From an uncultured Clostridia bacterium (GTDB lineage Bacteria > Bacillota > Clostridia > Oscillospirales > Ruminococcaceae): DNA of 51,157 nt. The notes below the pieces were generated by a model. The model did not search any database. It saw only the letters and a list, made by a program, of their open reading frames with translations, and had not been told where the DNA came from. The DNA lies in the NCBI GenBank assembly GCA_947626755.1, contig CANQTP010000013.1, forward strand, positions 1 to 51,157, in the 5' to 3' direction. The position numbers and the translations under genes are program-made. The number at the start of each line of letters is the position of its first letter. Position 1 is the stretch's first letter. Shown piece by piece: positions 4,585 to 36,186 of this stretch.

Positions 4585-4599
4585 AGTTTCAAGTCCTTT

Positions 4600-5877: not shown

Positions 5878-5893
5878 GTTAATTTCCTCCTGT

Positions 5894-7255: not shown

Positions 7256-7287
7256 GTTAATTGTTTCTCCTCTTTTGTAATTTAATT

Positions 7288-7314
7288 CGGGCAGATCGTT
7301 ATATGATCTGCCCG
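7288..7314 (-). terminator. Strong intergenic hairpin after the 7324 surface-protein gene
   Basis: Perfect 10-bp stem CGGGCAGATC/GATCTGCCCG with a 7-base loop, 10 bases after the stop codon of the surface protein gene and before the next ribosome binding site. There is no clear run of T after it on the minus strand, so it may be a leaky terminator, an RNA-processing site or a 3' stabiliser that sets the level of the downstream TPR and kinase genes. Confidence 0.5.
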
Positions 7315-7323
7315 GATCAAAAA

Positions 7324-11199: not shown

Positions 11200-11224
11200 A
11201 AGATCATTCCTTTCATTTTATGCG

Positions 11225-11257
11225 TAGAAGCAAACCGTAATTATCGGCTTGCTTCTA
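11225..11257 (-). terminator. Intergenic hairpin between the two surface-protein genes
   Basis: Stem TAGAAGCAA/TTGCTTCTA (11225-11233 with 11249-11257) around a 15-base loop, in the 68-base gap between the surface protein genes. No T-run follows on the minus strand. It may reduce or stabilise read-through, like the hairpin at 7288-7314. Confidence 0.4.
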
Positions 11258-11267
11258 TGATAATTTT

Positions 11268-14200: not shown

Positions 14201-14735
14201 AATATGTATTATTTATACTCAGCTGATCACCGTTTCCTACTATAAAATGTGCATAAGTAAAACAATTACCATTATTCGGTAAATTTACATTACTTGGTTC
14301 AATAACTTCATTCCATTCGACTTTTCTGTAATTAATTCCGTCTTCGGAATACATTATTACTTTGTCACAGCTGTCTTTATTGGTTATTTCTTCATATTTA
14401 ACAAGTATATCTCCCAAAGCTTCTTTTACATAATAAGCATACTCGGAATATCCTTCGATCCCGCCTTCGCTTCTGTCAATAGTTACTTTTTCATGGTCAT
14501 GCGATTCTATCGGCAGCAGACTCATCGGAGCAATGCCGTAATCCTCCGAGCCTTCTTCCTCTGATTCTCCGTCGCCGGCTTCGCTTGTCCCGTCGCCTGT
14601 TCCATCGTTTGTTCCGTCACTTATTTCCGTAACCGTGCCGCTCCCCGCTTCTTCTGCTATTACAGAGGACGGAAGAACACAAAGCGACATAGCCGCAGCA
14701 ATTAAGAATGCTGCGATCTTTCTTGCTTTCTTCAT
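11268..14735 (-). CDS. Large membrane-anchored surface protein (paralogue B)
   Basis: A 1155-residue protein. I start it at the ATG at 14735 (MKKARKIAAF) because AGGAAGG lies at the right distance for this codon and too close to the ATG three codons earlier. It has a signal peptide (about 1-27), a Gly/Glu/Ser stalk, the same post-stalk motif as paralogue A (EDYGIAPMSLLPIE against EDHGIAPASLLPLE), a putative Ig domain (LPEGLTLNENTGEIYGVP), a prealbumin-like domain (GVALELHSDPMTAVTD) and a C-terminal membrane helix ending KKRNN. No sortase motif is present. The kinase 2 gene ends 44 bases upstream, so both are probably on one transcript. Binding partner unknown. Confidence 0.75.
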   Translation of the reverse strand: MKKARKIAAFLIAAAMSLCVLPSSVIAEEAGSGTVTEISDGTNDGTGDGTSEAGDGESEEEGSEDYGIAPMSLLPIESHDHEKVTIDRSEGGIEGYSEYAYYVKEALGDILVKYEEITNKDSCDKVIMYSEDGINYRKVEWNEVIEPSNVNLPNNGNCFTYAHFIVGNGDQLSINNTYYRYVNITFSSFGQQFVDDLEFNLYDESGKKISPINSQEFMTNDDGDHYYYVLKDLSVTQIGKGKLPGLNITLPEEYTTEDVKIYDGLIYDKKALASANDITKELTDDSKPYQMTSSYSGAMWCSKDMTFSVTTSSGYECLIPVHFYVGINSNYITLNSDSGRNGYINDSLNNIYISDLYVFYGKNNFDGIDAYVTAKYCDYTNNNGNNKPEAVDFACFGDYSSQKAAESAGEKNIKDDLFVKGVKVDFTRFKDETKNTLDDGTKVTLREVKFTIFDKYGAVMHRSFYFAITPDKNSASSHLSEDTYFNVSGAGGGSEPVSSYPMPSGDDSYFMNGYQTIFMLNENGGPVKSGEIKPIFTPSGGAKITREDDNEEQVSGVSTVEFNAPETVVKYYAVSENNERLKNYWVTFITQQSGAHLFVNGINSAEKDQTPKREVFLDSAHNYVHDIFIANTGSEKLTDITAVLSEDTKGVKLDPYWQVIDGSTRSLNPFKKLGYNEFDSIAKIRLIPEKEGKFGAISGKLTISSNGGECTIELSGLAGVPKITTTQNQIFDGVKYVPYSCIIGTNNMYETNGMSFKLVRGNLPEGLTLNENTGEIYGVPKEAGSFPITVQATYTGNVPTDSSDYTSTASYVLLIKDNTDDNVDAVNSDDQGEKLTKSIDKYLTVYYNGRNGNYPISIDRVETSTGGLLRNEFFDSEGKYASDFMAFYLDGEKLTEGQDYTAVEGSTVITVIEQTLKNLAIEENSTHTLAAEFRAEKKPDGEFSRSAQNIHLKYVNLHPENDISGGSGNTGNPGSVSGSHQAVGMPAATLAKSKPASVSSRSVNAVMSFVDGNGNPLSGVALELHSDPMTAVTDASGAAAFDNIDFGQHTLYIKDSSGKTLAEKEFSIVSGNAVNIKGNVITAKTGEPLYLSVEFDGTEITFLSAEGEDVSAGASINAGDEIIEENIVSVYFILILMSITAVSAALILFAKKRNN

Positions 14736-14779
14736 GAAAAACATTCCTTCCTAAAAGTATATGAATCACGCGTTTCCGC

Positions 14780-17758
14780 TTAATTCCGATAATTTTTTGC
14801 CTGTTCTTTCAGTTCGTCAAGTTCGTAAACAGGCGATAATTTTATTTTCCCCGCAGGATAATCGCTTACAAGCATATCATCAACTACATCACAAAGATAC
14901 GGTATCTTTGCTAAAGGTTCACAATTACTGTTCATGAGAATACCGTAAAATGTGCCGTCGGTGGAAATATACTGTGCAATTATATAATTTCCGCTTTCGG
15001 TTATATATGTCAGGTAGTCCTCGCTGTTAAGATCTGCGATCTTTTCGCCGTCGGCTTTGGAATATACCTCGGGCGTTCCGTGCAGAGGAGCTTTTATGAT
15101 GTAATTTTCTGTTTCAAATTCTTCGTCAAGACTGTCGTCGGGCGGCGGGATCTCACTTTCCGAAACGATCTTTCCCGTTCTTGCGGAATACCTTTTTACT
15201 TTTCCGCTGTAATACGTTACTTCAAGCTCATCACTTTCATGCAGATACTGCTGATCGTATATTTTGTCCGGATCGGGAAGATCCGCTGTCATTTCAACAC
15301 TGCCGTCCGCATTCACGAATGCAATACTATTTATGCTGAAAAGGAATACTCCCGAACGATCCGCAAAAAGCCTTGCTTCACTGTGATAAATGCCCGGATC
15401 ATATTCAATTAAGCATTTTTCGTCATGTTCCTGCATTTCAAGTATTTCAACAGTCGGTGAATTCTTGTCGGCAATGACCGCGTATTCATCGGTTATGAGT
15501 ACAATGTCGGGTCTTGTGTCACGCTTGGTCTCTGTCATCAGTCCTGCATTTTTGTAAAATATCGAATATCCGTCCTCCGCCGCGCAGATAACATATTTAT
15601 CCGAAACATCAAATGCCGTTATGTTTTTGTTTTCCATGTATGCGGCTTCGATTTGTTCAAGAGTGTCCGTTTCAACTTTAAGAACTGTATCGTTCCGCGT
15701 TATATAAAGTTCACCGTTATAAACTTTCAGCTCTACGGGATCGTTTTCCGTCAGATCTCCGATATATTCGGCTGTTGTAAAATCAGCCATTCCGAAAATG
15801 GGATCCGCTCCCCCGAACGCCGAAAATGTAAACAGATCATCACAGAATACCCCGCCGAAAGCGGCATATTCCGATGTGTCATATATTATCATATCACCAT
15901 CGGGATCGTAAATATCAAGCATTCCCAGAAAGCCGCCTTCAAGACTTACCGCGCAGAGACTTCCGTCCTCATTGAGTTCAAGCACGTTCCTTTCCGCATC
16001 GGCAAAATTGTCATTTTCGGGAATACTCATGTGTCTGCCTTCAAGTTCACGGTATGAAACGAGCTCTCCCGTTTCGGTATCATAAAAATTTATCAGATCG
16101 TCTTTTCCGTTTATTGCCGCCGCAGTACTGCCGTCTCCCGAAACAGAAATTGCAGTTGCGGGAGCAGTCTGCCACAATATTTTGTCGTTTTGAAAGTCAT
16201 ATGCGGTGAGTCCGTCTTCCCCTGCATAAATAATTTTATTTCCGTCAATAAATTCTGCTTCGCACAATGCCGATTTAAGGGTCGGAAGAGTTTTTACCGC
16301 ATTTCCCGTTTCTATATCGTAAATTGCAAGTTCATACGCATAGCATATAAAAAGCTTTGTCCCGTCCGGTGATTTCTTTATCCTGAACGGTGCGGAAGGC
16401 AGTTCAATAACGCTGTGTGGTTTGAAGCTGTCCGACAGATCGTAAACGCCCAGCGCGTTGGTAAGTGCAAACTGCGCTTCCGCAGTGTACGGAATGTCAA
16501 ATGTTCCGGGATCGTCTTTAAGTGCCTGCATTGCAAGATCAAGTGCCGAACGGACATTTCCCCCGGAAAGCGCTTCCGCAGAATCCGCCGCCAGAACGTG
16601 CGCCGCCTGCAAACGTTCGGTCTGTTTTATTCCCATAAATACAGCCGCTCCGCCTATAACTGCCATTACCGAGAAGATCGCTGCCGCAGCGGTAAGCTGC
16701 CTTTTTCTGCGCCTTACACGGGGATCGTTTTTCCAAAGCCCGTTTATTGCCTCCAGCATTTCTTCCGCCGACCCGAATCTCAGATCGGGATTCGGGTCCA
16801 TGGCTTTTGTGACAATGTCCGCTATAAGCGGGCTGACTTCCTTATCCGAAAGCCTTTTAACATCTTTTGCATCTCTCGGCGGCTTTCTGCCGCTGAGCAT
16901 ATGGTACAATGTTGCGCCGACGCTGTAAATATCCGAGCGAGCATCGGGGACTATTACTTTTTTCACCGAAGACGAATAACTGCTGTTTGCCTTGACGTCA
17001 TCTTCTTTGACAGGTGTTGCTGCATTATTTTCGGGAACAACGTCATTCTGATCGGCAAGTTCTGTTTTATCAAGCAGTACTTCTGTTTCTTCATATATAA
17101 ATTCCGTTTTTGCATATGCAGATCCTGTTTTCTGCCCGGTAAATTCTTCCTTTTCGTCTTTTGCCGATGTGTTTTCGTATGTGTAGTTCGTATTTTTCCC
17201 GCCGAATGAATAGTCAATGCCATAATGTTCGGGAGAAGAATAACCATCGCTTTTGCCGATAACTGTTTCAATGCCTATGGCAAGGGAAATGTTAAAATCG
17301 ATCAGACATATATTCCCATCGGGACGGATCATGATATTTGCAGGCTTTACATCACTGTGAACATATCCCCGCGGCGGATCGCCGTGAGTAGGACTGTGAA
17401 GATAAGCAAGCGCTTCAAGGAGCTGTCTTATCCAGAAAATTGTCTTTGCCTGCGGAATTTTATTTTCTCTTTTAAGTATCTTGTCAAGGCTTTCGCCGTC
17501 AACAAAATCCATTACCGTATATGATGTATCATCTTCAATAAAATAGTCATACACCTGCGGGATATATGTATGCCGCAATTCTTTAAGAACATCAACTTCG
17601 CGGCGCAGAAGCGTCTGCCGTGTGTTGGTGCTGCGCTTATCGGCTTTCAGGACAACTCTTTTGCCAAGACGGATATGATTTGCCAAATAAACAACACCAC
17701 CGCCTCCGGCACCGAGTTTACCTATTATTTCATAGGTTGAATCAATTATTTCCGACAT
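14780..17758 (-). CDS. Receptor-type Ser/Thr protein kinase with extracytoplasmic beta-propeller (kinase 2)
   Basis: A 992-residue Hanks-type kinase: glycine loop LGAGGGGVVY (15-24), ATP lysine K38 (VVLK), helix-C glutamate E54, catalytic loop HSDVKPAN (134-141), DFN (154-156) instead of DFG, and SSPEHY closing the activation segment. An insert of about 90 residues follows, with KTEF, EETEVLL and DKTEL, before ARSDIYSVG. A membrane helix lies at about 355-376. Outside, after a helical stretch (ALDLAMQALKDDPGTF), about 550 residues look like WD40/PQQ-type propeller blades (SPDGTKLFICY, YDIETGNAV, AISVSGDGSTAAAI, ARTGKIVSESE). GGAGGATATT precedes the ATG, and the small membrane protein gene stops 11 bases upstream. 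The propeller probably senses or binds an extracytoplasmic partner, perhaps the neighbouring surface proteins (inference). Confidence 0.9.
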   Translation of the reverse strand: MSEIIDSTYEIIGKLGAGGGGVVYLANHIRLGKRVVLKADKRSTNTRQTLLRREVDVLKELRHTYIPQVYDYFIEDDTSYTVMDFVDGESLDKILKRENKIPQAKTIFWIRQLLEALAYLHSPTHGDPPRGYVHSDVKPANIMIRPDGNICLIDFNISLAIGIETVIGKSDGYSSPEHYGIDYSFGGKNTNYTYENTSAKDEKEEFTGQKTGSAYAKTEFIYEETEVLLDKTELADQNDVVPENNAATPVKEDDVKANSSYSSSVKKVIVPDARSDIYSVGATLYHMLSGRKPPRDAKDVKRLSDKEVSPLIADIVTKAMDPNPDLRFGSAEEMLEAINGLWKNDPRVRRRKRQLTAAAAIFSVMAVIGGAAVFMGIKQTERLQAAHVLAADSAEALSGGNVRSALDLAMQALKDDPGTFDIPYTAEAQFALTNALGVYDLSDSFKPHSVIELPSAPFRIKKSPDGTKLFICYAYELAIYDIETGNAVKTLPTLKSALCEAEFIDGNKIIYAGEDGLTAYDFQNDKILWQTAPATAISVSGDGSTAAAINGKDDLINFYDTETGELVSYRELEGRHMSIPENDNFADAERNVLELNEDGSLCAVSLEGGFLGMLDIYDPDGDMIIYDTSEYAAFGGVFCDDLFTFSAFGGADPIFGMADFTTAEYIGDLTENDPVELKVYNGELYITRNDTVLKVETDTLEQIEAAYMENKNITAFDVSDKYVICAAEDGYSIFYKNAGLMTETKRDTRPDIVLITDEYAVIADKNSPTVEILEMQEHDEKCLIEYDPGIYHSEARLFADRSGVFLFSINSIAFVNADGSVEMTADLPDPDKIYDQQYLHESDELEVTYYSGKVKRYSARTGKIVSESEIPPPDDSLDEEFETENYIIKAPLHGTPEVYSKADGEKIADLNSEDYLTYITESGNYIIAQYISTDGTFYGILMNSNCEPLAKIPYLCDVVDDMLVSDYPAGKIKLSPVYELDELKEQAKNYRN

Positions 17759-17769
17759 AATATCCTCCG

Positions 17770-17925
17770 CTATCTGCTTTTCTTGCCATATTCATTTTCA
17801 AGACGCTTTTTCAGCCGCTTTCCCGACAAACAGAAATATACCGAAAATATTGCTGCCGCGATCAGCAGCATCACAAGCAGAACTATGCCTGCATTAAGCA
17901 ATTCTTCACCGTAAAGATCCAACAT
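17770..17925 (-). CDS. Small single-pass membrane protein beside kinase 2
   Basis: A 51-residue protein preceded by TTGAGGTG. It has a short N-terminus (MLDLYGEELLN), a hydrophobic helix at about residues 12-34 (AGIVLLVMLLIAAAIFSVYF) and a basic tail (GKRLKKRLENEYGKKSR). The stop codon lies 11 bases before the kinase 2 start and the kinase ribosome binding site begins at once after it, so the two are translated together. Same architecture as the 56-residue protein at 2216-2386 beside kinase 1, although the sequences differ. No known family recognised. Confidence 0.7.
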   Translation of the reverse strand: MLDLYGEELLNAGIVLLVMLLIAAAIFSVYFCLSGKRLKKRLENEYGKKSR

Positions 17926-18019
17926 AAAACACCTCAATACTTAAACATAAAACTGCAATTCCTGACAGTTTAAAGCAGACTTCAGAAATATAATAACGAA
18001 CAATAAATATTATTGATTT

Positions 18020-18721
18020 TTACAAGCATTTTATAATATACGCAGTGATATTATCACGTTCACCGTATTTTTTCATGCGTTCTATCTCCTTTTTGATCAC
18101 TTTTCCGACATTGGTATGACGGCGGATACCGCGGCATTTTTTTGCAATATGCTTCTGATCCATATGCTTGTAAAATCCGTCAGAACACACAAGCAGGCTT
18201 TCATTTTTGGTTATGCGTCCGTAGTATGTATTGATGAAAAGTTTTTCATTGAATCCTATGCATTGTCTTAATGCGCCTCGCTTGCTCCCATTGGAAGGCA
18301 GAACATCGTCCTCCGTGACCTGTTCGGCTTTTTTCAGAATATGATAGACCCTGCTGTCACCTACATTTGCCGCCATAAAATTTTCTTCGCTGACTATTAC
18401 TGCAGACATTGTGCTGCCTGTTTCAAGGGAATTCACCTTGCTGTGGCGGCATATTCTTTCATTAAGATCATAAATATGTTCAAGGAACGACATTATGACC
18501 TGATCAAAAGTGCTGCTGCTCTTTAAATGCAGCGACCATTCCTTCACACTTTCCGTTATTATCCCCGAAGCGATCTCACCATCTTTAAGACTTCCTATAC
18601 CATCACAGACAATACCTATAAAAATCGGTATATCGGTACTGCATTCTCCTGCAAAAAAGCTATCCTCGTTATTCGGACGGGAAGTGCCTATATCGCTGAA
18701 AGCTCCATATATGTAATTCAT
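18020..18721 (-). CDS. PP2C-family Ser/Thr protein phosphatase
   Basis: A 233-residue PPM/PP2C catalytic domain with no extra domains and no membrane segment, so cytoplasmic. All metal-binding motifs are present: NNED (17-20), CDGIG (39-43, where many relatives have DGMGG), a GDSRVYHI strand, CSDG (169-172) and RDN (222-224). It should remove phosphate from Ser/Thr residues placed by the two receptor kinases of the same locus and so reset the FHA-dependent output. It follows the FHA gene by 20 bases. Beyond its stop codon, about 95 bases without a gene contain a small hairpin (CAATAA/TTATTG, 18001-18015) before the next small gene. Confidence 0.9.
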   Translation of the reverse strand: MNYIYGAFSDIGTSRPNNEDSFFAGECSTDIPIFIGIVCDGIGSLKDGEIASGIITESVKEWSLHLKSSSTFDQVIMSFLEHIYDLNERICRHSKVNSLETGSTMSAVIVSEENFMAANVGDSRVYHILKKAEQVTEDDVLPSNGSKRGALRQCIGFNEKLFINTYYGRITKNESLLVCSDGFYKHMDQKHIAKKCRGIRRHTNVGKVIKKEIERMKKYGERDNITAYIIKCL

Positions 18722-18741
18722 AGCAGCTCTCCTCCGAAAAA

Positions 18742-20100
18742 TTACATTTCTTTGAATTCGTAAACATACAAACTGTCGCCGAACACTATCATATCTCCGT
18801 CTGAAATTGTATATGCCGTATTCGGCTGAAGGATCTGTCCATTGATAAACGTTTTATTTGCCGAATTCATATCCGTAACCGAATATTCAGTACCAACGCG
18901 CTTTATAAGCACATGGCGGCGGCTTATCTTTTTAAAGTCGGCGCTGAATTTGTATCCGAAGTAATTTGAACTTTCCGACTGTCTGCCTATATACATTTCG
19001 CCGTTTGCGTCAAAAGAAAGCTCAATTCTTTTCGGAGCATCAAGAGGACCGTTATTTTCTTTAAGAGCAAGATAAGGATCCGCACCCGCGATCTCGGTAA
19101 CGCCGTCATCATATGCACCCGCAAAAACAGTTTCATCGTTTGCAGGAACTTCTGTCATATTATTGCTTGGTGCAGAAAATTTATTTGGAGCGGCTTTGTC
19201 CTTTTTAAGGAAAGACAGTATAGAATCCACGCCCTTTTCTTTGCTTTTTTCCTTGCCCTTTTCCTTGGTTTTCAAAACAGATTTAGAAGCGGTCTTTTTC
19301 CCGCCGAAAAGTTCTTCCATAGCCCTGTCCCTTTCAGAGGAAAGCGGATTTACAGCATCGGGCTTTGCTTCTGCAGGTGCGGGCTTTTCCGGCTTAGGCT
19401 GCGTAGCAGGCATGATCTTAGGGAATCCGACACCGCTTTTTGATTCTTTATGAATAGGTTCGTTTGATGGAACTGAAGCTTCTCTCTGCGGCTGACGAAC
19501 AGACTCTTTCTGAGGTTGTATTTCTCTTTTTACGGGAATATCTTTTTTGCTTCTGTCATCGTATTTTCCTATCAGATCAAGCAGCGATGCTACTGAAACA
19601 TTTCCGTCAACGACCATTCGCAGCAAAATATTGCTAAGTTCCGCAGAGTCGGTCAGCCGCACATTTTTAATGATCTCTGCAAAGAAACCTGATATTTCAG
19701 CATCGGAGCAGAAATTGTCAAGATCAAAAGAATATATGTACCTTACATTATAATCATAGGATCCCACAAATACCAACTGCGGCGTCAGCATGAAATAATG
19801 GCTGTCGATCATCCAATCGGAACATTCGATCATAGGGTTTATAAGATTTTTCAGAAGCCGGATAAATTCACTGCCTGACATTTTCATTATCAGATTTTCT
19901 ATAGGCTTGAAATTACCGAGTTCATATTTAAGGAATGACTCGCCGTTTATAGTAACTTCATTTACCGGCGCAGAAAAATACGGACAATCATTCCTGAATA
20001 TCTTCATAGCAAGTTCGTCATATCTTCCGCCGCGTTTTTTAGGGATATTCAAAGTATTATTAGCAAGAGAATTTACTATCCTATAGCCTTCTGTATTCAT
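18742..20100 (-). CDS. FHA-domain signalling protein with GarA-like phospho-site region
   Basis: A 452-residue cytoplasmic protein. I use the ATG at 20100 with AAAGGA nine bases upstream; a TTG six codons earlier overlaps that site. Residues 1-180 form an N-terminal globular domain, of a type I associate with Clostridial FHA proteins (possibly DUF6382). Residues 181-310 are a Lys/Pro/Glu-rich linker. The FHA domain is at about 358-449 with the conserved GR (372-373), SRRH (393-396) and SANKTFING (413-421), and should bind phospho-threonine. Just before it come NDETVFAGAY (321-330) and DGVTEIAGA (332-340), which resemble the phosphorylated ETT motif placed ahead of the FHA domain in mycobacterial GarA and corynebacterial OdhI. 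It is probably the main substrate/adaptor of the two kinases. Confidence 0.85.
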   Translation of the reverse strand: MNTEGYRIVNSLANNTLNIPKKRGGRYDELAMKIFRNDCPYFSAPVNEVTINGESFLKYELGNFKPIENLIMKMSGSEFIRLLKNLINPMIECSDWMIDSHYFMLTPQLVFVGSYDYNVRYIYSFDLDNFCSDAEISGFFAEIIKNVRLTDSAELSNILLRMVVDGNVSVASLLDLIGKYDDRSKKDIPVKREIQPQKESVRQPQREASVPSNEPIHKESKSGVGFPKIMPATQPKPEKPAPAEAKPDAVNPLSSERDRAMEELFGGKKTASKSVLKTKEKGKEKSKEKGVDSILSFLKKDKAAPNKFSAPSNNMTEVPANDETVFAGAYDDGVTEIAGADPYLALKENNGPLDAPKRIELSFDANGEMYIGRQSESSNYFGYKFSADFKKISRRHVLIKRVGTEYSVTDMNSANKTFINGQILQPNTAYTISDGDMIVFGDSLYVYEFKEM

Positions 20101-20133
20101 AATATCAGTTCCTTTCAAAAAGATATAATGATT

Positions 20134-29363: not shown

Positions 29364-30644
29364 TCAAAGATAATTATAAATACCCGCATTAATGAATTTA
29401 TCCGGGTGGATCATTTTATTTCCGGTGCGTTTAAGTCCGCCGACCACCTTGCTGACGGTACTTTCGGGGGATTCTTCAAATCTGAACAGCGGGTTAAGGA
29501 TAATATCCCCATGCTCGTCGATCCTGTCGACTTCCGTGATCTCCAATGTCTTTCTGGAAAAATCACGCAGTCTTGACAGATGCACTATTATATCCACAGC
29601 GGAAGCTATCTGCTGACGTATAGCAGGAAGCGGCAGTCCCGGAGAACCGCTCAGCACCATTGTTTCCAGACGGCTGAGCATATCATGTGAAGAATTGGCA
29701 TGACCTGTGGAAAGCGAACCGTCATGACCTGTGTTCATAGCCTGAAGCATATCCAGAGCTTCACCGCCTCTGACCTCACCCACGACAATACGTTCAGGAC
29801 GCATTCTCAGCGATGATTTGATAAGATCCCTTATCGTGATCCCTCCCTTTCCGGCAGAATTGGCATTTTTTGTTTCCAGCCTTACAAGGTTAGGAATGTT
29901 TTTGATCTGGAGTTCAGCACTGTCCTCAATGGTTATTACACGCTCATATGAAGGAATAAAGTTTGAAAGGGCGTTAAGAAAAGTGGTTTTTCCGCTTCCT
30001 GTACCGCCGCATACAAATATATTATACTTTGCTCTTACAAGCTTTTCGAGGAAATCTGCCGCTTCCTGAGTAAGGGAACCGTAGTCCAGAAGTTTCTGTA
30101 TTGTCATGGCTTCCTGCGGGAAACGCCTGATGGTCACTATCGGACCGTTCAGCGCAACAGGTGGAAGAACAACATTTACACGGGAACCGTCCTCAAGCCT
30201 CGTATCAACGATAGGATTGCTTTCGTCAACGCTTCGTCCTGCCATGCGGACGAATTTAATGATTATATCGGTAAGCACTTCCGTGCTTTCAAATCTTTCG
30301 GGAAGTTTCTTTACCTTTCCGTTCTGTTCAACGAATATGTTATCGTAGCCATTTATCATGACTTCGGTTATGGTCTTGTCTTCAATGATAGTCCCGAGAA
30401 CGTCAAGACCGCGTATAGATTCAAAAACGCTGTTTTTAATGCTGTTTTTGTCACGAAATGTTATAGAGCCTGTTTCACCGTGATAGTTTTCATCTGATGA
30501 AGCAAGCTCTTCAAGCTTTACCTCCATGAACCCCTCTATAGCATCATAGAGTTCATCATCACTCATAAGCGTAAGGTTTGGAAGCTCCTGTATTTTATTT
30601 TTTATATCGACAGTTATTGCCTTGAAAAGATCTCCGCTGATCAT
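29364..30644 (-). CDS. tadA: TadA/CpaF pilus assembly ATPase
   Basis: A 426-residue secretion ATPase of normal family length. The Walker A motif GGTGSGKT is at 213-220, the Asp box and Walker B region reads RPERIVVGEVRGGEALDML, and the His box follows (TGHDGSLSTGHANS). The N-terminal domain contains VMINGYDNIFVEQNGK, typical of CpaF. It powers polymerisation, and in some systems also retraction, of the Flp-type pilus from the cytoplasm. A near-perfect ribosome binding site (GGAGGTGATT) precedes the ATG. It lies 22 bases downstream of tadZ. Confidence 0.95.
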   Translation of the reverse strand: MISGDLFKAITVDIKNKIQELPNLTLMSDDELYDAIEGFMEVKLEELASSDENYHGETGSITFRDKNSIKNSVFESIRGLDVLGTIIEDKTITEVMINGYDNIFVEQNGKVKKLPERFESTEVLTDIIIKFVRMAGRSVDESNPIVDTRLEDGSRVNVVLPPVALNGPIVTIRRFPQEAMTIQKLLDYGSLTQEAADFLEKLVRAKYNIFVCGGTGSGKTTFLNALSNFIPSYERVITIEDSAELQIKNIPNLVRLETKNANSAGKGGITIRDLIKSSLRMRPERIVVGEVRGGEALDMLQAMNTGHDGSLSTGHANSSHDMLSRLETMVLSGSPGLPLPAIRQQIASAVDIIVHLSRLRDFSRKTLEITEVDRIDEHGDIILNPLFRFEESPESTVSKVVGGLKRTGNKMIHPDKFINAGIYNYL

Positions 30645-30666
30645 TTAATCACCTCCGGACAGAACA

Positions 30667-31707
30667 TTATGAGATCAACATATCCATATCCAGCAGTGAA
30701 TATTTGCTGATATAAGATACAAGTTCATCAGGATCACATTTCTTTTCGGGTATTCGTCCGGCAATCTCGTAACCTGCTGCGCTCATATCGGAAGCTCCGT
30801 TTGAAAAGTTTATTACTGAGCATATCTTATCGGAATATTCGCGCATGACTGTTCTGTGTTCCGAAAACTTTTTAATTTTTTCTTTTGCAGTCTTATCGGG
30901 AGTTTCTGCCAGCACTATCTTATCGGAAATATCCAGAATACTGCGGTCAAGCTGATCAAAGCTTATACCCATGTCAATGATTATGTAATCTGCCGTTCCG
31001 GTTTCATTGATCTTGCGGATAAGCTTTTCGATATCCTCGGAAGTTATCTCATAAATATCAAGTATATTCTCGAATTTTTCAAAATAAATAATGCCCTGAG
31101 GAGTTTTCTGCATAAGGCTTTCGAGTTTAAGGCTGAAGCTGCCGCTGCTGTCAAGAGCAGCCATCAGTTCGCCCATTCCCTTGCTGCCTTTCAACGGCAT
31201 ATAAGCACCATATGAAGCTATAGGTTCAAAATTCAGATACATAACGCTTCGTCCTTTGTTGGCAACGGATCGCGCCACTGACAAAGAGAGGGTAGTTTTG
31301 CCGCTTCCTCCTACGGGAGAATAGAAGCTTATCACCTTGCAGTGACCTGTAGAATTTGAAAAAGGATCGGAAACGTACTCCGAATATATGCCGATGACTT
31401 CTTTGTAAATAGTACTGCCTCTCTGGAACTTTTTTACAAACGCAAATTTGCCTGCAAATCCGGAAGGAAGTTCGTTATCCTCATCATACAGCATAACAGC
31501 AAGTTTTGAATTTTTGAAAAGGTTATCGCCGGAATACATGGAATGATCGAACAGGATAATATCATATCTGACAGAAGTTATTTCTTTTTCCATTTTTTCC
31601 TTATTTGTATAAACAGAAATGGAAAGATTCTCCTGTTTTTGCAACGCATCAAAAAGTCTTGCAGCGTAGGTTTCATTTGAGTCGGCTATTGCAATTTTTA
31701 TTTTCAT
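30667..31707 (-). CDS. tadZ: TadZ/CpaE pilus localisation ATPase
   Basis: A 346-residue protein with an N-terminal receiver-like domain (about 1-110, acidic D54 in ILFDHSM) fused to a ParA/MinD-type ATPase with the deviant Walker A motif PVGGSGKTT (131-139) and a conserved IIIDMG segment. TadZ positions the Tad machine in the cell and recruits TadA. It is the first gene of the minus-strand locus. AAGGCGGG before the ATG serves as ribosome binding site. Its leader begins at the left inverted repeat of the recombinase segment (31737-31762), so the transcript reaching it depends on which end of that segment faces it. Confidence 0.88.
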   Translation of the reverse strand: MKIKIAIADSNETYAARLFDALQKQENLSISVYTNKEKMEKEITSVRYDIILFDHSMYSGDNLFKNSKLAVMLYDEDNELPSGFAGKFAFVKKFQRGSTIYKEVIGIYSEYVSDPFSNSTGHCKVISFYSPVGGSGKTTLSLSVARSVANKGRSVMYLNFEPIASYGAYMPLKGSKGMGELMAALDSSGSFSLKLESLMQKTPQGIIYFEKFENILDIYEITSEDIEKLIRKINETGTADYIIIDMGISFDQLDRSILDISDKIVLAETPDKTAKEKIKKFSEHRTVMREYSDKICSVINFSNGASDMSAAGYEIAGRIPEKKCDPDELVSYISKYSLLDMDMLIS

Positions 31708-31736
31708 TCTTAACCCGCCTTAAAATATGTAATAAT

Positions 31737-31762
31737 TTTCGCAAAGTATACTCTTTTGCGAA
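31737..31762 (+). repeat. Left 26-bp inverted repeat (recombination site)
   Basis: The site has two 8-bp inverted arms, TTCGCAAA (31738-31745) and TTTGCGAA (31755-31762), around a 9-base centre GTATACTCT, plus one more matching T at the left edge. This is the layout of a tyrosine recombinase core site. It is the exact reverse complement of 33111-33136; flanking bases differ on both sides. It lies 29 bases upstream of the tadZ start. Confidence 0.85.
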
Positions 31763-31763
31763 C

Positions 31764-31793
31764 AATATAACAAAAATGCTGTAATTAAAACAA
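31764..31793 (-). promoter_or_regulatory. Weak promoter candidate facing tadZ in the present orientation
   Basis: On the minus strand TTGTTT (31788-31793), an 18-base spacer and TATATT (31764-31769) lie between the recombinase gene and the left repeat. The match is only moderate. It may give basal transcription of tadZ, or read-through from the recombinase gene may do so. Confidence 0.3.
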
Positions 31794-31835
31794 ATAATGC
31801 AGATCCGTGACGATGATCCCGACGGTCAAAAAACT

Positions 31836-32933
31836 TTATGCGGCTTTAAAATTATCGGAAAATATTTTCATGCAGTTTCGCTTTCTTTCAATGGACGAAT
31901 GAACATATCTGTCAAGCGTTACTTTTACCGAACTGTGTCCGAGAATTTCGGAAAGAGTTTTTGCATCTATCCCGAGACCGGCACATTTAGTGGCAAACGC
32001 GTGTCTAAGCGAATGAAAATTTACTTTAGGAAGTTTCAGCTTTTTAAGAATTGCTGCAAATCTGTACTGCATTGTACGCGGTTCAATAAATTTTTCGCTG
32101 CCTGTAAGAAAATAATTTTTGCCGTCAGTCCGTATAGCTTCTAATTTTGGTACAAGGAAATCAGGTATCGGGATCTCACGAACGGAACTCCTGCTTTTGG
32201 GAGATGTGACGATTATTTTGGTAGAATGTTTATTTACGCTTATCCTTTGTAAAGTTTTTCTGACGGTGATAATACTTTTTTCAAGATCAATGTCAGACCA
32301 TTTCAATGCGCAAAGTTCGCCTATTCTTATGCCTGACGAAAGCGACAGAAGTATCCCGGCATTGCTTGGCGAAAAATTATCCATCAGATCCTCTGCAAGG
32401 ATATTCTGTTCCTTATCTGTCAGCAAAGTCTTTTCCGCATATTTTCTGTCTCTTGGCAGGCTGAGATATTCCGCCTTGTCTGCATATCCGAATTGACGAT
32501 GAACAAACTTAGTTACAGATTTTATAAGGACAGCTATATCAGCAGTATATTTTACCGATAAACCGCTTGAAAGACGATCTGAAACAAGATCATCAAGCTT
32601 TTTGATCGTCAGCTGTTCGTAGACAATATTTCCCAGATAAGGCATAATGTGCTTATTTACTTTCATAAGATAGTTTGCATATGTAGATTCTTTTACATTA
32701 TTGCGGATAGTTTTAAGCCACATCATCGTCAGTTCACCGAATCTGAGACGGCACACCGGGACATTTTCCTGTATTTTAAGCCTTTTTTCGCAAAGAATAG
32801 AACGGACTTCCGAGTAACTTTTTCCGTAAACGGAAGAATATTTTGCTTTTCCGTTAGGTTTGAAACCGTTTTTGTAACGTCCTTCCCAGCGTCCGTCCTT
32901 GCGTTTGTAAATATTTTCTCCTCTTTTTGCCAT
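31836..32933 (-). CDS. Tyrosine recombinase (phage-integrase family), candidate DNA invertase
   Basis: A 365-residue recombinase with a complete catalytic set: R193 (SGIRIGELCAL), K236 (SPKSRSS), H297 and R300 (FHSLRHAFATK), H323 (LGHSS) and nucleophile Y333 (LDRYVH). The N-terminus has an AP2-like/arm-binding region (KRKDGRWEGRYKNG) and a core-binding SAM-like domain (about 65-160). AAAGGAGA lies about eight bases before the ATG. The gene is alone between two 26-bp inverted repeats, so I infer that it inverts this segment. Nothing suggests a larger phage or conjugative element around it: no excisionase, relaxase or direct repeats seen. Its leader has a TATAAT-like box but no convincing -35. 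Confidence 0.9.
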   Translation of the reverse strand: MAKRGENIYKRKDGRWEGRYKNGFKPNGKAKYSSVYGKSYSEVRSILCEKRLKIQENVPVCRLRFGELTMMWLKTIRNNVKESTYANYLMKVNKHIMPYLGNIVYEQLTIKKLDDLVSDRLSSGLSVKYTADIAVLIKSVTKFVHRQFGYADKAEYLSLPRDRKYAEKTLLTDKEQNILAEDLMDNFSPSNAGILLSLSSGIRIGELCALKWSDIDLEKSIITVRKTLQRISVNKHSTKIIVTSPKSRSSVREIPIPDFLVPKLEAIRTDGKNYFLTGSEKFIEPRTMQYRFAAILKKLKLPKVNFHSLRHAFATKCAGLGIDAKTLSEILGHSSVKVTLDRYVHSSIERKRNCMKIFSDNFKAA

Positions 32934-33056
32934 ATTTGAACTCTCCTTTTATTTTGACGGTGTTTCTGACGGCTTTTGAGCGACAAAATCACAATGTTTC
33001 AGCGATATGGTTTGTCGGTCAGCGGCGCATATTAAAAAAATTATATAATTTGCATA

Positions 33057-33085
33057 TTGACAACGATGTCATAATATGTTAAAAT
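33057..33085 (+). promoter_or_regulatory. Strong outward-facing promoter of the invertible segment
   Basis: TTGACA (33057-33062), exactly 17 bases, then TAAAAT (33080-33085): one mismatch to the sigma-A consensus. It points right, through the right inverted repeat, into a short stretch without a plausible gene and then a hairpin. After inversion it would start transcripts roughly 90 bases upstream of the tadZ start codon. Confidence 0.7.
33058..33071. promoter_or_regulatory. Palindrome overlapping the -35 box
   Basis: TGACAACGATGTCA is an inverted repeat with arms TGACA/TGTCA and a 4-base centre, covering the -35 region of the strong promoter. It could be the operator of a repressor, for instance an autoregulatory site for the divergent recombinase gene. 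Half of the left arm is simply the -35 consensus, so chance cannot be excluded. Confidence 0.35.
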
Positions 33086-33110
33086 ATATAAAATTAGCGT
33101 ATTATTGCCT

Positions 33111-33136
33111 TTCGCAAAAGAGTATACTTTGCGAAA
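33111..33136 (-). repeat. Right 26-bp inverted repeat (recombination site)
   Basis: Exact reverse complement of 31737-31762 over 26 bases, with arms TTCGCAAA and TTTGCGAA around AGAGTATAC. It lies 25 bases beyond the -10 box of the strong promoter. Confidence 0.85.
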
Positions 33137-33154
33137 GGCGTTTTCAATTGAAGC

Positions 33155-33210
33155 ATAAAAATAAAAACGGGATACTGCATATCCTCCATAAACGGGCTAT
33201 GCAGTATCCC
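33155..33210 (-). terminator. Terminator of the NSS transporter gene
   Basis: A perfect 12-bp stem, GGGATACTGCAT (33169-33180) with ATGCAGTATCCC (33199-33210), and an 18-base loop. On the minus strand it is followed by GTTTTTATTTTTATG, a good T-run, 40 bases after the transporter stop. Seen from the plus strand it faces transcripts from the promoter at 33057 but lacks a strong T-run in that direction. Confidence 0.85.
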
Positions 33211-33249
33211 TTAAAACCGGATTGTTTAATTGTAATACAAATAATTTTT

Positions 33250-34647
33250 TCAGAAAACTCCCAACGATCTTAAAAGCAGTACGGTAAGCATTATTGGAGC
33301 AAGGAATTTTATCATTACCATGAAAAGACCTTTTCGCCCCATTTTAGTATCTGTTTTTTCAACTTCGTCAACTACAGTTTCAGGTTTTACGATCCAGCCG
33401 ATAAGTATGCAGGTGCCTATGGCAACTATTGGCATGAGAATGTTGTTGCTGAGATAGTCCATAATATCAAGGATCTGTGCGGTGCTTCCGTTGGGAAGTA
33501 CTGCTTCAAAGTAAAGCACATTGTATCCGAGACAGACTATAATGGCAAGCACAGCAGTTATCGCAGTGACGATCAACGCCGCCTTTGTTCTTCCTAAGCT
33601 GAATTTGTCTATAAGACTTGAAACAACGGCTTCCATTATGGAAATTGCGCTTGTAAGGGCGGCAAAGAATACCATTGCAAAGAACAGTGCGCCGATAATT
33701 TCACCCACCGTTCCCATTTTGTCAAAAACTTTGGGCAGCGAAACGAACATCAGCCCCGGACCTGATGCGGACATTCCTTCTCTTCCCGAAAATACATACA
33801 CTGCGGGTATGATCATTATTCCCGCGAGGAATGCAACTGCGGTATCGAAAATTTCTATCTGATTTACCGAGGAATTGAGGTTCGCATCATCGCGTACATA
33901 TGAGCCGTATGTTATCATGATCCCCATTGCAACGCTTAGACTGAAAAACAGCTGCCCCATTGCATCAATAAGTACGGTCATGAATTTTTCCAAGGTAAAT
34001 CCGCTGAAGTCGGGTATAAGATAGATCGCCAGACCTTCCATGCCTGTTCTTGTAATGCCGCTGTCATCGGTGTGGTCAAGAGTTATTGAAAAAACGGCTA
34101 TCACTATCACAAGGACAAGAAGTATCGGCATAAGTATTTTGGAAAATGATTCTATGCCTTTATTAACGCCGCGTATAACTACAAAGACCACCGCTGCAAG
34201 GAAAACAAGCGTCATAATCAAAGGTTCTGCCATTCCTGAAATAAAAGCGTTGAAATATCCGTCCTGTGCGGCTGCCGAGCCGTTGAACGTCACATACCCC
34301 AGAAGATATTTCAGCACCCAACCGCCGATAGCACAATAATAAGGAAGTATCATTGCGGGAATGATACATGCAAGTATCCCAAGATGACGCCATTTCTTAT
34401 TAAGGGCACCGTAAGCAGTCAGAGGACTTTGCTTGGTTTTACGCCCGATGGCTGTTTCGGTCATAAGCAGTGTAAATCCGAAAGTGAGTGCAAGAACAAG
34501 GTAAACAACAAGGAACATTCCTCCGCCGTCCTTGGTGGCAAGGTATGGGAAACGCCATATATTTCCCAGACCGACTGCACTGCCTGCGGCGGCAAGGACA
34601 AATCCCAGCGATCCCTTAAAAGTGTTTCTTTTTTCGTTATTCCCCAT
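33250..34647 (-). CDS. Sodium-dependent transporter, NSS/SNF family
   Basis: A 465-residue polytopic membrane protein of about 11-12 helices. The family signature is at the N-terminus (GSLGFVLAAAGSAVGLGNIW, then RFPYLATKDGGGMFLVVY), with the unwound substrate-binding region of helix 1. Later segments (AMGIMITYGSYVRDDANL; GPGLMFVSLPKVF) also fit NSS transporters such as LeuT or Tyt1. It should carry an amino acid or related amine inward together with sodium; the substrate is not evident. It has its own consensus promoter (34683-34711) and terminator, so it is a single-gene unit, not part of the pilus locus. Confidence 0.92.
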   Translation of the reverse strand: MGNNEKRNTFKGSLGFVLAAAGSAVGLGNIWRFPYLATKDGGGMFLVVYLVLALTFGFTLLMTETAIGRKTKQSPLTAYGALNKKWRHLGILACIIPAMILPYYCAIGGWVLKYLLGYVTFNGSAAAQDGYFNAFISGMAEPLIMTLVFLAAVVFVVIRGVNKGIESFSKILMPILLVLVIVIAVFSITLDHTDDSGITRTGMEGLAIYLIPDFSGFTLEKFMTVLIDAMGQLFFSLSVAMGIMITYGSYVRDDANLNSSVNQIEIFDTAVAFLAGIMIIPAVYVFSGREGMSASGPGLMFVSLPKVFDKMGTVGEIIGALFFAMVFFAALTSAISIMEAVVSSLIDKFSLGRTKAALIVTAITAVLAIIVCLGYNVLYFEAVLPNGSTAQILDIMDYLSNNILMPIVAIGTCILIGWIVKPETVVDEVEKTDTKMGRKGLFMVMIKFLAPIMLTVLLLRSLGVF

Positions 34648-34682
34648 AATATTTTCTCCCCTTGTTAAAAAATTACTAAAAA

Positions 34683-34711
34683 ATTATATCATAAATATCC
34701 GTTTTTGTCAA
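34683..34711 (-). promoter_or_regulatory. Consensus sigma-A promoter of the NSS transporter gene
   Basis: On the minus strand TTGACA (34706-34711), a 17-base spacer and TATAAT (34683-34688), 36 bases before the transporter start codon. All twelve bases match consensus. Confidence 0.9.
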
Positions 34712-34843
34712 CAAAATTTTAAGCCGCCGAGGAGTTTACGGGTAGATTTGTCAATGATATGTTACACTTGCCCTCAAAAATAAAGATGTTAATAATGCGG
34801 CTGATTGCGGCGGCTCACAAAACAGCCGGATAATCGGCTAAAA

Positions 34844-34999
34844 TCACATTAGGACTGCGATAACCATGACAGCTTTTTGATACGGTTTGGGCTCGCGAGG
34901 CTTTCTTGCATATGGAGCTTTATCAAGCTCAATTCTGCGAATTGCCCTCAACATAGTCTGATAACATCTTTTATAGCCTTTTCCCGGAGTCTGTCCCAT
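34844..34999 (-). pseudogene. Short basic reading frame, possible transposase C-terminal remnant
   Basis: The only coding-like signal in the 470-base gap between the transporter and Rpn genes. It encodes 51 residues, MGQTPGKGYKRCYQTMLRAI followed by a Lys/Arg/Pro-rich segment (RKPREPKPYQK) and a short hydrophobic end. The basic composition recalls the C-terminal tails of DDE transposases, and a stop lies in frame five codons upstream of the ATG. No ribosome binding site is evident. I could not assign a family, so this may be a decayed insertion sequence end or chance. Confidence 0.3.
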
Positions 35000-35118
35000 A
35001 GCATTGTCATATCATCATGATACGCGCACCTACAACAAATCTAATTAAAAAAACTATTGATTTTATTGCCCTGTTGTGATACAATGAAATAGAAGAAAGA
35101 CGTAAGGGAGATAGCAAA

Positions 35119-36186
35119 GTGGCAGAAGCACCTACATATGAAGCCGATGTAATAGACAGCATTTCCGATATCCCGGTAGATCCCAGATGTGATGCCGCCT
35201 GCAAGAAAGTCCTTTCCTGCAAAGAATTTGCTGCTCCAATACTAAAATATGTCTGCACGGAATATGAGGGCATGGAAACATCTGACATTATTGCTCTTAT
35301 GGAAGACGGAGTAATTTCAGAGATTCCCCTTGACTCTGACGCTCCGCAGACCAAACGAACACCTGTTATAGAGCAGTCAAACAGTGAAAGTTCCACTTTA
35401 AAAAACGGAACGCGGTTCTTTGACATACGGTTCAATGTAAAGGCACCAAGCGAAGACGGTTACATACAGTTGATAATAAACCTTGAGGCGCAGAATGCCA
35501 ACAGACCGGGGTACAGTATCCTGAAAAGAGCACTGTATTACTGTTCAAGAATGATCTCAGACCAGTACGGAACGGTATTTACAGGATCGGATTACGGAAA
35601 GATACGCAAAGTTTATTCCATATGGGTATGTTTGCATCCGAACAAAGCTTACACTGACACAATTGCACGTTTCAGCGTGAAAAAGGAGATAATTCACGGA
35701 GAAACAAAACTTACACTTGAAGAAGAAAACAAAGAACGGAAAAATTACGACCTTATAAACATGACTATAGTAGGGTTGAAAGATTTTGATTTGGCAGCAC
35801 AGTCGGAACATCCGCTGATAAGAATGCTGAGTCTTATCTTTACACAGGAACTGACCACCGGACAGAAAAAAGAACTGCTCGAAAATGATTATAACATACA
35901 AATGACCGAGAATGTAGAGGAGGCGTTTGAAGATATGTGTGATTTTAGTACAGGATTTTATCAGGACGGGCTTAATAAAGGCGTTGAACGTGGTATTGGC
36001 ATTGGTGTTGAACGTGGTATTGGCATCGGCAGAACTGAGGGCATCAGCATCGGTAAACTGGAAGAACAATCCAATACCATCAAAAAGCTGCTGCTTCATA
36101 AGCTTGACCCAAGTCAGATTTCTTCACTTCTTGAAATTCCTCTTGATGAGGTGGAGAAGGTCAAACGGAGTATCGCTCAGAACTGA
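35119..36186 (+). CDS. Rpn-family PD-(D/E)XK nuclease / transposase-like protein
   Basis: A 355-residue protein starting at GTG with AAGGGAG upstream. The nuclease core is visible in RFFDIRFNVKAP and IQLIINLEAQNANRPGY, giving the D...E-x-Q pattern of the PD-(D/E)XK Rpn/transposase_31 group. The middle (YSIWVCLHPN; RMLSLIFTQELTTGQKKELL) and the C-terminal helical tail (PSQISSLLEIPLDEVEKVKR) also fit. E. coli RpnA-type proteins cut DNA and promote RecA-independent recombination; cellular roles are poorly known and include phage defence proposals. A tandem 8-residue repeat VERGIGIG occurs at 289-304. It is flanked by a good terminator and stands alone. Confidence 0.8.
   Translation: MAEAPTYEADVIDSISDIPVDPRCDAACKKVLSCKEFAAPILKYVCTEYEGMETSDIIALMEDGVISEIPLDSDAPQTKRTPVIEQSNSESSTLKNGTRFFDIRFNVKAPSEDGYIQLIINLEAQNANRPGYSILKRALYYCSRMISDQYGTVFTGSDYGKIRKVYSIWVCLHPNKAYTDTIARFSVKKEIIHGETKLTLEEENKERKNYDLINMTIVGLKDFDLAAQSEHPLIRMLSLIFTQELTTGQKKELLENDYNIQMTENVEEAFEDMCDFSTGFYQDGLNKGVERGIGIGVERGIGIGRTEGISIGKLEEQSNTIKKLLLHKLDPSQISSLLEIPLDEVEKVKRSIAQN
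35983..36030 (+). repeat. 24-bp in-frame tandem repeat inside the Rpn gene
   Basis: Two adjacent 24-base units (22 of 24 positions identical) encode VERGIGIG twice, followed by a third decayed version (RTEGISIG). Being a multiple of three it can expand or contract without shifting the frame. Such G-x-G repeats are common in the tail linker of Rpn-type proteins. Confidence 0.85.

Follow-up and report, generated by a model that had tools for sequence, protein, structure and literature searches.

A 1.4-kb segment upstream of a Tad pilus locus appears to be a self-contained phase-variation cassette that inverts itself and thereby sets the expression of the Tad genes; on the strength of sequence comparison, we give this reading a probability of about 0.8. 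The segment is part of contig CANQTP010000013.1 (GCA_947626755.1; referred to here as the window, i.e., the entire stretch of 51,157 nt that was analysed) from an uncultured Clostridia bacterium of the family Ruminococcaceae, the genome of which is assembled in 198 contigs. In the proposed mechanism, the integrase-type tyrosine recombinase would bind both inverted sites, strand exchange would take place in the 9-nt core common to the two sites, and the entire segment, its own recombinase gene included, would be inverted. A strong promoter near one end of the segment would direct transcription across the adjoining site and out of the segment: away from tadZ in the sequenced orientation (the putative OFF state), and in the inverted orientation (ON) into tadZ and part or all of the Tad-kinase gene set. 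The features of the locus are as follows.

29364..30644, minus strand: tadA-type ATPase (T2SSE; TIGR03819, 286.7 bits), the second gene of the putative target locus
30667..31707, minus strand: tadZ (PF21194, TadZ-like_ARD; AAA_31), the first gene of the Tad locus and the presumed target
31737..31762, plus strand: left recombination site, arms TTCGCAAA / TTTGCGAA around the core GTATACTCT
31808..31825, minus strand: CGTCA and CGTC motifs that follow the recombinase stop and may be arm-type binding sites
31836..32933, minus strand: gene for a 365-aa tyrosine recombinase (invertase) of the integrase type, which carries the N-terminal NIYKRKDGRWEGR block (PF00589, PF14659)
32955..32971, minus strand: two CGTCA motifs upstream of the recombinase start, likewise candidate arm-type sites by predicted function
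33057..33085, plus strand: outward promoter TTGACA-17-TAAAAT with an extended -10, 11/12 matches, facing away from tadZ
33111..33136, minus strand: right recombination site, inverted, 26 nt, 100% complementary to 31737-31762
33169..33210, strand not assigned: hairpin with 16-nt arms, 94% complementary, and a 10-nt loop (pair I5), in the gap between the right site and the symporter gene

Inverted Sites and the Enclosed Recombinase

The preliminary description of this DNA had reported perfect 26-bp inverted repeats, each with 8-bp inverted arms around a 9-base centre, that enclose a single complete tyrosine recombinase gene, and this anatomy is directly observed. In the inverted-repeat scan of the window, the two 26-nt arms are 100% complementary and are separated by 1348 nt; both sites have the form TTCGCAAA-9 nt-TTTGCGAA, and the palindromic arms of the right site are 12 nt long (inverted-repeat pair I14). 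The inverted-repeat (IR) score of the window cassette is 26; none of the 1293 random 1.09-kb intervals from loci of the family reaches 17 (maximum 15), and neither does any of 10 loci of other integrases scored in the same way (maximum 13), namely those with full flanks out of 17 such loci. Given these controls, the site pair is not a chance occurrence. Across the 198 contigs of its own genome, with up to 3 mismatches allowed, the window site is present at only its two positions. A looser site pattern gives 11 matches over both strands at six places, all of which adjoin recombinase genes or a recombinase fragment, and the reversed control pattern gives 0 matches in this genome. A further site in the same genome (L062, G000:C143, 312-738) adjoins an N-terminal stretch of a recombinase, the frame of which runs towards the contig end.

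The enclosed gene matches the Pfam families Phage_integrase (2.1e-22) and Phage_int_SAM_3 (1.6e-11); shorter overlapping ORFs in other frames between the sites were listed and not counted as genes. Among 22 aligned recombinases, R203, H307, R310, H333 and Y343, which we take to be the catalytic residues, are invariant (22/22), and PF00589 together with the R...HxxR...H...Y pattern, likewise found in 22/22, places the protein in the tyrosine recombinase/phage integrase family. The N-terminal NIYKRKDGRWEGR block, conserved across these 22 proteins, presumably resembles the arm-binding domain of lambda/Tn916-like integrases; the AP2 family of Pfam gives a match (0.0042) in only one of the 22. In a subset of the 81 cassettes described below, paired CGTCA motifs within the segment are candidate arm sites: at least two CGTCA motifs occur upstream of the recombinase in 21/81 cassettes and outside the segment in 0/81, and at least two CGTC motifs occur downstream of the recombinase in 34/81 and outside the segment in 1/81. 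Speculatively, such sites might bias the direction of inversion.

The Outward Promoter and the Assignment of States

The outward promoter is the top one of 8 promoter-like sites in the region, with a TG preceding the -10 element. This element ends at a distance of 51 nt from the right site's outer end, and the promoter reads rightward out of the segment. By arithmetic, inversion would place it at 31816-31788, with the -10 element ending 80 nt before the tadZ start codon. Only 29 nt separate this start codon from the left site, and a full promoter would hardly fit in this gap. Since the promoter faces away from tadZ, which begins this close to the site, and inversion would reverse the direction, the sequenced state reads as OFF. 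Inverted sites surround a promoter-bearing segment beside the presumed target gene, which is the arrangement of an inverton, with the promoter recognized by consensus only.

The terminator scans of the window revealed no recognizable terminator between the recombinase gene and tadZ; transcription of tadZ by read-through may therefore occur in the state presumed to be OFF, and a weak 9/12 promoter-like site also faces tadZ in the present orientation. The missing terminator would also fit an unlikely alternative, in which the segment inverts with the states reversed or graded, such that the recombinase transcript would read into tadZ now, with invertase and pilus expressed together, and the outward promoter would serve otherwise. 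The layouts of 89 cassettes fit this possibility in that the commonest one has a same-strand gene downstream of the recombinase, with 33 cassettes of the type (toward, away) and 10 of the type (none, away); a gene on the promoter side only is found in 8 plus 6 cassettes, and genes on both sides are found in 15. Nevertheless, the outward promoter is close to the consensus and conserved, whereas the top inward site upstream of the window recombinase is weak (9/12), and genes on the promoter side can begin directly at the site, as the helicase genes in L048 and L049 do.

Among the 135 cassettes scanned, an outward terminator is present beyond the promoter-side site in 21 and an inward one in 17; terminators beyond the other site and between the recombinase and the site are each found in 5, and none of these four placements was found in the window cassette. 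The hairpin at 33169..33210 was not among the calls of the stricter terminator scans; with the segment oriented as sequenced, it might cause partial termination of the outward transcript. A search of Rfam over 30000-35500 yielded nothing reaching the gathering threshold.

The Tad Locus and Its Counterparts

The presumed target starts with tadZ and tadA; the TIGR03819 score of the latter is under the cut-off of 373 for this family. To the left of these genes are encoded a T2SSF protein, a prepilin peptidase, two Ser/Thr kinases, a PP2C phosphatase, and FHA and TPR proteins; the right neighbour of the segment is a convergent sodium symporter gene. Within 2398-20118 of the window, one of the two Ser/Thr protein kinases carries TPR and the other a WD40-like stretch, and together with the PP2C phosphatase and the FHA protein they appear to comprise a signalling module inside the pilus locus.

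A genome of the same genus, G019, has the same layout at the start of its Tad locus, with TadZ 92% identical and its own cassette in the same orientation. The recombinase genes of the two are 76.5% identical in nucleotides, with the site and promoter block nearly unchanged (2 differences in ~62 nt around the promoter, as counted visually on the alignment). The flanks facing Tad are homologous through 4 kb (85.6%); in the flank beyond the other site, no homology between the two was found, and a forced alignment gives 67.3% with 128 gap positions in 400. L158 is a third, distant Tad locus with a cassette, its TadZ being identified by Pfam, and all three cassettes have one orientation relative to tadZ. 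A search for TadZ at E<=1e-40 among 396 genomes of the family, a sample that does not include G019, returned the own genome only, so that no Tad counterpart in the opposite orientation was found.

The single orientation of both Tad copies of the genus, and the absence of a direct sign of inversion for the window copy, would be compatible with a degenerate remnant of an integrase, the inverted sites of which have ceased to recombine in this strain. We consider such decay improbable in view of the intact ORF with all the invariant residues, the perfect sites and the conservation of the promoter block between species.

A Family of Cassettes with Conserved Anatomy

In the genus, 20 of the 21 genomes match the recombinase somewhere, mostly through distant integrases, and 14 of the 21 loci examined have a perfect inverted pair of 18-29 nt that spans the recombinase. 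Of the seven others, two are cut by a contig end, four have no spanning pair (recombinases 37-44% identical), and one is a fragment with a 14-mer taken as chance. All 14 cassettes with a perfect pair have an outward promoter of 11 or 12/12 on the 5' side of the recombinase, and its distance to the site's outer end is 42-104 nt. The arm TTTCGCAAA is found repeatedly among the genus cassettes, in variant forms as well; the two cores of a copy match, and most copies have different cores.

In the family, 60 of 297 genomes match the recombinase at E<=1e-60, in 101 rows. Eight of these rows had already been collected and 80 of the other 93 were added, the omitted 13 being 36-42% identical; these 80 and 17 loci from the genus search, the window included, make up a set of 97 copies, from which three genus loci (37-40% identity, without a pair) and one fragment are excluded. 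After removal of 9 copies too near contig ends, 73 of the remaining 88 have an IR score of at least 17, and no pair of at least 17 is present in 15. Nine loci from plasmid and phage collections brought the 97 to 106, of which 25 were dropped (IR<15, contig ends or odd spacing), leaving 81 cassettes. An outward promoter of at least 10/12 is present in 71/81 of these, compared to 9.4% of first-order Markov shuffles, and an inward one in 19/81; a clear outward promoter is absent in 10/81. Among the nine plasmid and phage-collection relatives, the IR score is at least 17 in six, 15 in two and 11 in one. In viral contigs, 3 stretches matched a pattern, with a relative encoded in none of them.

At the level of the class, 44 of 391 sampled genomes, from 17 families, match a 22-member profile at E<=1e-80, and among the loci outside the window's family, 17 of 26 have IR of at least 17, 12 of these also with the promoter. 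The holders of the best 80 named loci, some records of which overlap the other sets, include Ruminococcus flavefaciens, R. callidus, Butyricicoccus pullicaecorum, Blautia glucerasea and Dorea; 60 of the 75 testable loci have IR of at least 17, and 51 of them have the promoter. Ruminococcus albus 7 and Enterococcus plasmids carry relatives as well; the one on pRUMAL02 of R. albus 7 (L171) is located between a tyrosine recombinase pair and a serine recombinase trio. Pooled and non-redundant, the collection amounts to 199 recombinases, mostly from the window's class with a few from Enterococcus; 10 are at contig ends, and among the 189 testable ones, 149 have IR of at least 17 and 123 have both the IR and the outward promoter. 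The copies that lack a clear site pair or promoter, within the family and beyond it, weigh against the cassette reading.

Exchange of Flanks Among Relatives

One sign of switching comes from flanks that change sides between related cassettes. This comparison covers one genus with 43 genomes, the assemblies being drafts from different species. In G307, flank C adjoins the recombinase 5' side, as it does in G438 (80-85% identical); in G113, it adjoins the 3' side, and the first 200 nt of the G307 and G113 flanks are 99.0% identical. G445 and G438 carry flank B next to the 3' side and G113 carries it next to the 5' side; the G445 and G113 versions are 94.8% identical over 1277 nt, counted from the base immediately outside the site. 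In both pairs, the second flank differs. Flank A of G445 reappears at the flank-C cassette of G113, which gives G113 the additional look of having arisen by recombination between its two cassettes. In addition, the homologous helicase genes of L048, L049 and L103 adjoin the promoter end and that of L109 the opposite end, and L285 and L306 have a 75% identical flank on opposite sides. On the opposing side, flank pairs fall into 114 rows with the same orientation, many of which are one record counted twice or recently shared elements, versus 6 rows (4 distinct pairs) with opposite orientations.

Across sister genomes, two cassettes have re-paired flanks (L080, L201, L188, L189, L079 and L202), as recombination between cassettes of like core would produce.

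At the right end of L115 (G145:C44:47834), 35 nt of the opposite flank are joined to the segment in a 55-nt exact inverted match that includes the site, at a position where two sister cassettes of the same genome carry another flank. Perhaps, both orientations are present in that sample; this is the one inverted junction among 25 contig-end cassettes checked, and a fold-back assembly error would be another possible source. Cassettes are located within 500 nt of a contig end in 20 of 96 cases, with 5.4 expected, an excess of the kind that mixed orientations or other repeats would cause. Among Enterococcus plasmids, three E. raffinosus records, one of which is the query's own, are 99.7-100% identical over 5.5 kb and have one orientation, a fourth record, 86.4% identical, has the same orientation, and in the plasmid orientation comparison the E. 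faecalis locus was whole in one record only, its own.

Comparison of related assemblies for inverted copies, as the preliminary description had suggested, revealed both orientations across relatives, and a single one for the window copy and its G019 counterpart. The main claim of that description, an inversion switch upstream of the Tad locus, gains strong support from the conserved anatomy, the placement of a promoter that would have to be inverted before it could drive tadZ, and the flank switching in relatives. The inversion of the window copy itself, the position of strand exchange, the putative control of the full 31-kb locus and the effect on pilus expression are inferred.

Copies Elsewhere and the Question of Mobility

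Copies of the 1.4-kb unit elsewhere had been named in advance as a possible mark of an insertion element. Such copies do exist, 4 full ones in the own genome (G000), and they could be taken to mean that the unit is a mobile element with transposon-like ends that came to lie upstream of the Tad locus by happenstance. In the same vein, copies within G113 and within G145 are 94-95% identical in protein, and a cassette with 100% identical flanks is found in three named genera. We regard this explanation as highly improbable, considering that the core differs between copies and matches within a copy, that the copies in the own genome are just 65-68% identical, and that the cassette is kept with Tad in G019, with no homology found on the other side. 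Nor is there an excess of target-site duplications: direct repeats of at least 5 nt flank 2.0% of 147 cassettes, compared to 3.7% for re-paired flanks. A tyrosine recombinase acting on inverted sites inverts the intervening DNA and does not excise it. The within-copy match of the cores, the outward promoter and the lack of a target-site duplication excess led us to reject an insertion sequence or transposon, and the insertion-element meaning of the copies falls with it.

Five cassettes (L146, L300, L301, L302 and L179) have the same site, the same segment length and one orientation, with 100% identical flanks over 3.8 kb on one side and 0.3-3.9 kb on the other. They are found in Butyricicoccus pullicaecorum, Blautia glucerasea, Agathobaculum massiliense, another genome and the phage-filed scaffold MT836186, and their identity points to very recent transfer across genera.

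Diversity of the Putative Targets

From 89 cassettes with IR of at least 15, 30 neighbour genes were picked and scanned with Pfam; for five of these (L097, L107, L118, L155 and L165), the scan gave no match. The matches are as follows.

LytTR response regulators: L044, L046, L093, L114, L147
leucine-rich or dockerin proteins: L050, L051, L056, L123, L137
laminin-G: L104
VWA: L100, L148
pilin: L163
WxL: L172
mucin-binding repeats: L125
Wzz: L101
glycosyltransferase: L106
helicases with HA repeats: L049, L103 (2 and 8 matched stretches)
Eco57I-type methylase: L139
nuclease: L053
signal peptidase: L141
glyoxalase: L170
TadZ: L158

The genes downstream of the Enterococcus cassettes encode WxL proteins (L172, E. 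gilvus) or a regulator followed by accessory-Sec genes (L174, E. raffinosus); the plasmids on which both of these cassettes reside are about 1 Mb in size. Several cassettes have a helicase gene as a neighbour (L048, L049, L103 and L109), and for four helicase-type targets, PADLOC gave partial defence-helicase matches for three and none for the fourth, a fragment; we assign no defence role to them. In L110 (G158:C48), a 181-nt imperfect inverted pair, oriented 5741-5921 and 7153-7333, covers the starts of two different long proteins with a nearly identical signal sequence, which looks like the layout of an either-or switch.

Relationship to Known Inversion Systems

The fimS element of E. coli, with FimB/FimE, is similar to the window cassette in that a tyrosine recombinase acts on inverted repeats around an invertible pili promoter; the fim recombinases, in contrast, are encoded outside the invertible segment and are not known to have the N-terminal block. 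In the profile search, the nearest solved relatives of the recombinase are 6en0, 6emy and 6emz ('Int protein'), which we take to be Tn1549 Int, a likeness to the Tn916/Tn1549-type integrases. These enzymes integrate and excise elements, whereas the window gene sits between inverted sites that bound nothing excisable.

Salmonella Hin, with its H segment and the fljBA switch, shares with the window cassette an invertase gene inside its own segment, and the accessible text of Sekulovic and co-workers (PMC5903667) cites Hin as an example of recombinases that are occasionally found in this position; the orientation of a promoter in the segment is switched (PMC4513852, in its accessible part), and the target is a surface appendage. 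Unlike the window enzyme, an integrase-type tyrosine recombinase with a 9-nt core, Hin is a serine recombinase that acts with Fis (PMC4513852, same part); the window cassette differs further in its candidate CGTCA arm sites and in belonging to a dispersed family with many targets. The RecV switches of Clostridioides difficile (flagella, cwpV) likewise represent phase variation by a tyrosine recombinase in Clostridia with surface targets, but RecV inverts several switches (PMC5903667, accessible text) whereas each cassette here encodes its own enzyme. In the accessible part of an inverton survey (PMC11892184), invertases are linked to nearby invertons and generally cannot be driven by the inverton's promoter, and no description of the present cassette was found there.

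The preliminary description had considered a self-encoded invertase governing a Tad pilus with a kinase module to be undescribed. This claim has to be narrowed because the hin gene already lies inside its own invertible segment (PMC5903667, accessible text). A search of the literature, with most subscription papers outside its range, found no title or abstract that deals with a self-encoded tyrosine-recombinase promoter cassette or with an invertible Tad promoter, nor any paper that links the Tad pilus to both phase variation and inversion; it does not establish that such work is missing from print. According to the accessible portion of a review (PMC11868660), PhaseFinder searched for invertible intergenic regions; if it was confined to these, a 1.4-kb, gene-bearing inverton could have been missed.

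Judging by its relatives, the window cassette is to be seen as a dispersed module rather than a Tad-specific device. It seems reasonably probable, with less confidence than for the switch itself, that there is a portable family of self-encoded tyrosine-recombinase promoter-inversion cassettes in this class and in Enterococcus that exert stochastic control over their targets. Such a family would cover Tad pili, two-component regulators, adhesins, polysaccharide operons and nucleic-acid enzymes, with a distinct core for each cassette and with some cassettes on plasmids and recently shared elements. Cassettes that share a core may also recombine mutually and so reshuffle operons, as G113 suggests. 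If this is correct, Clostridia would set long surface and regulatory operons on or off by means of one self-contained part, and the combination of a per-cassette core with an outward promoter would make the targets and their ON and OFF states predictable from sequence.
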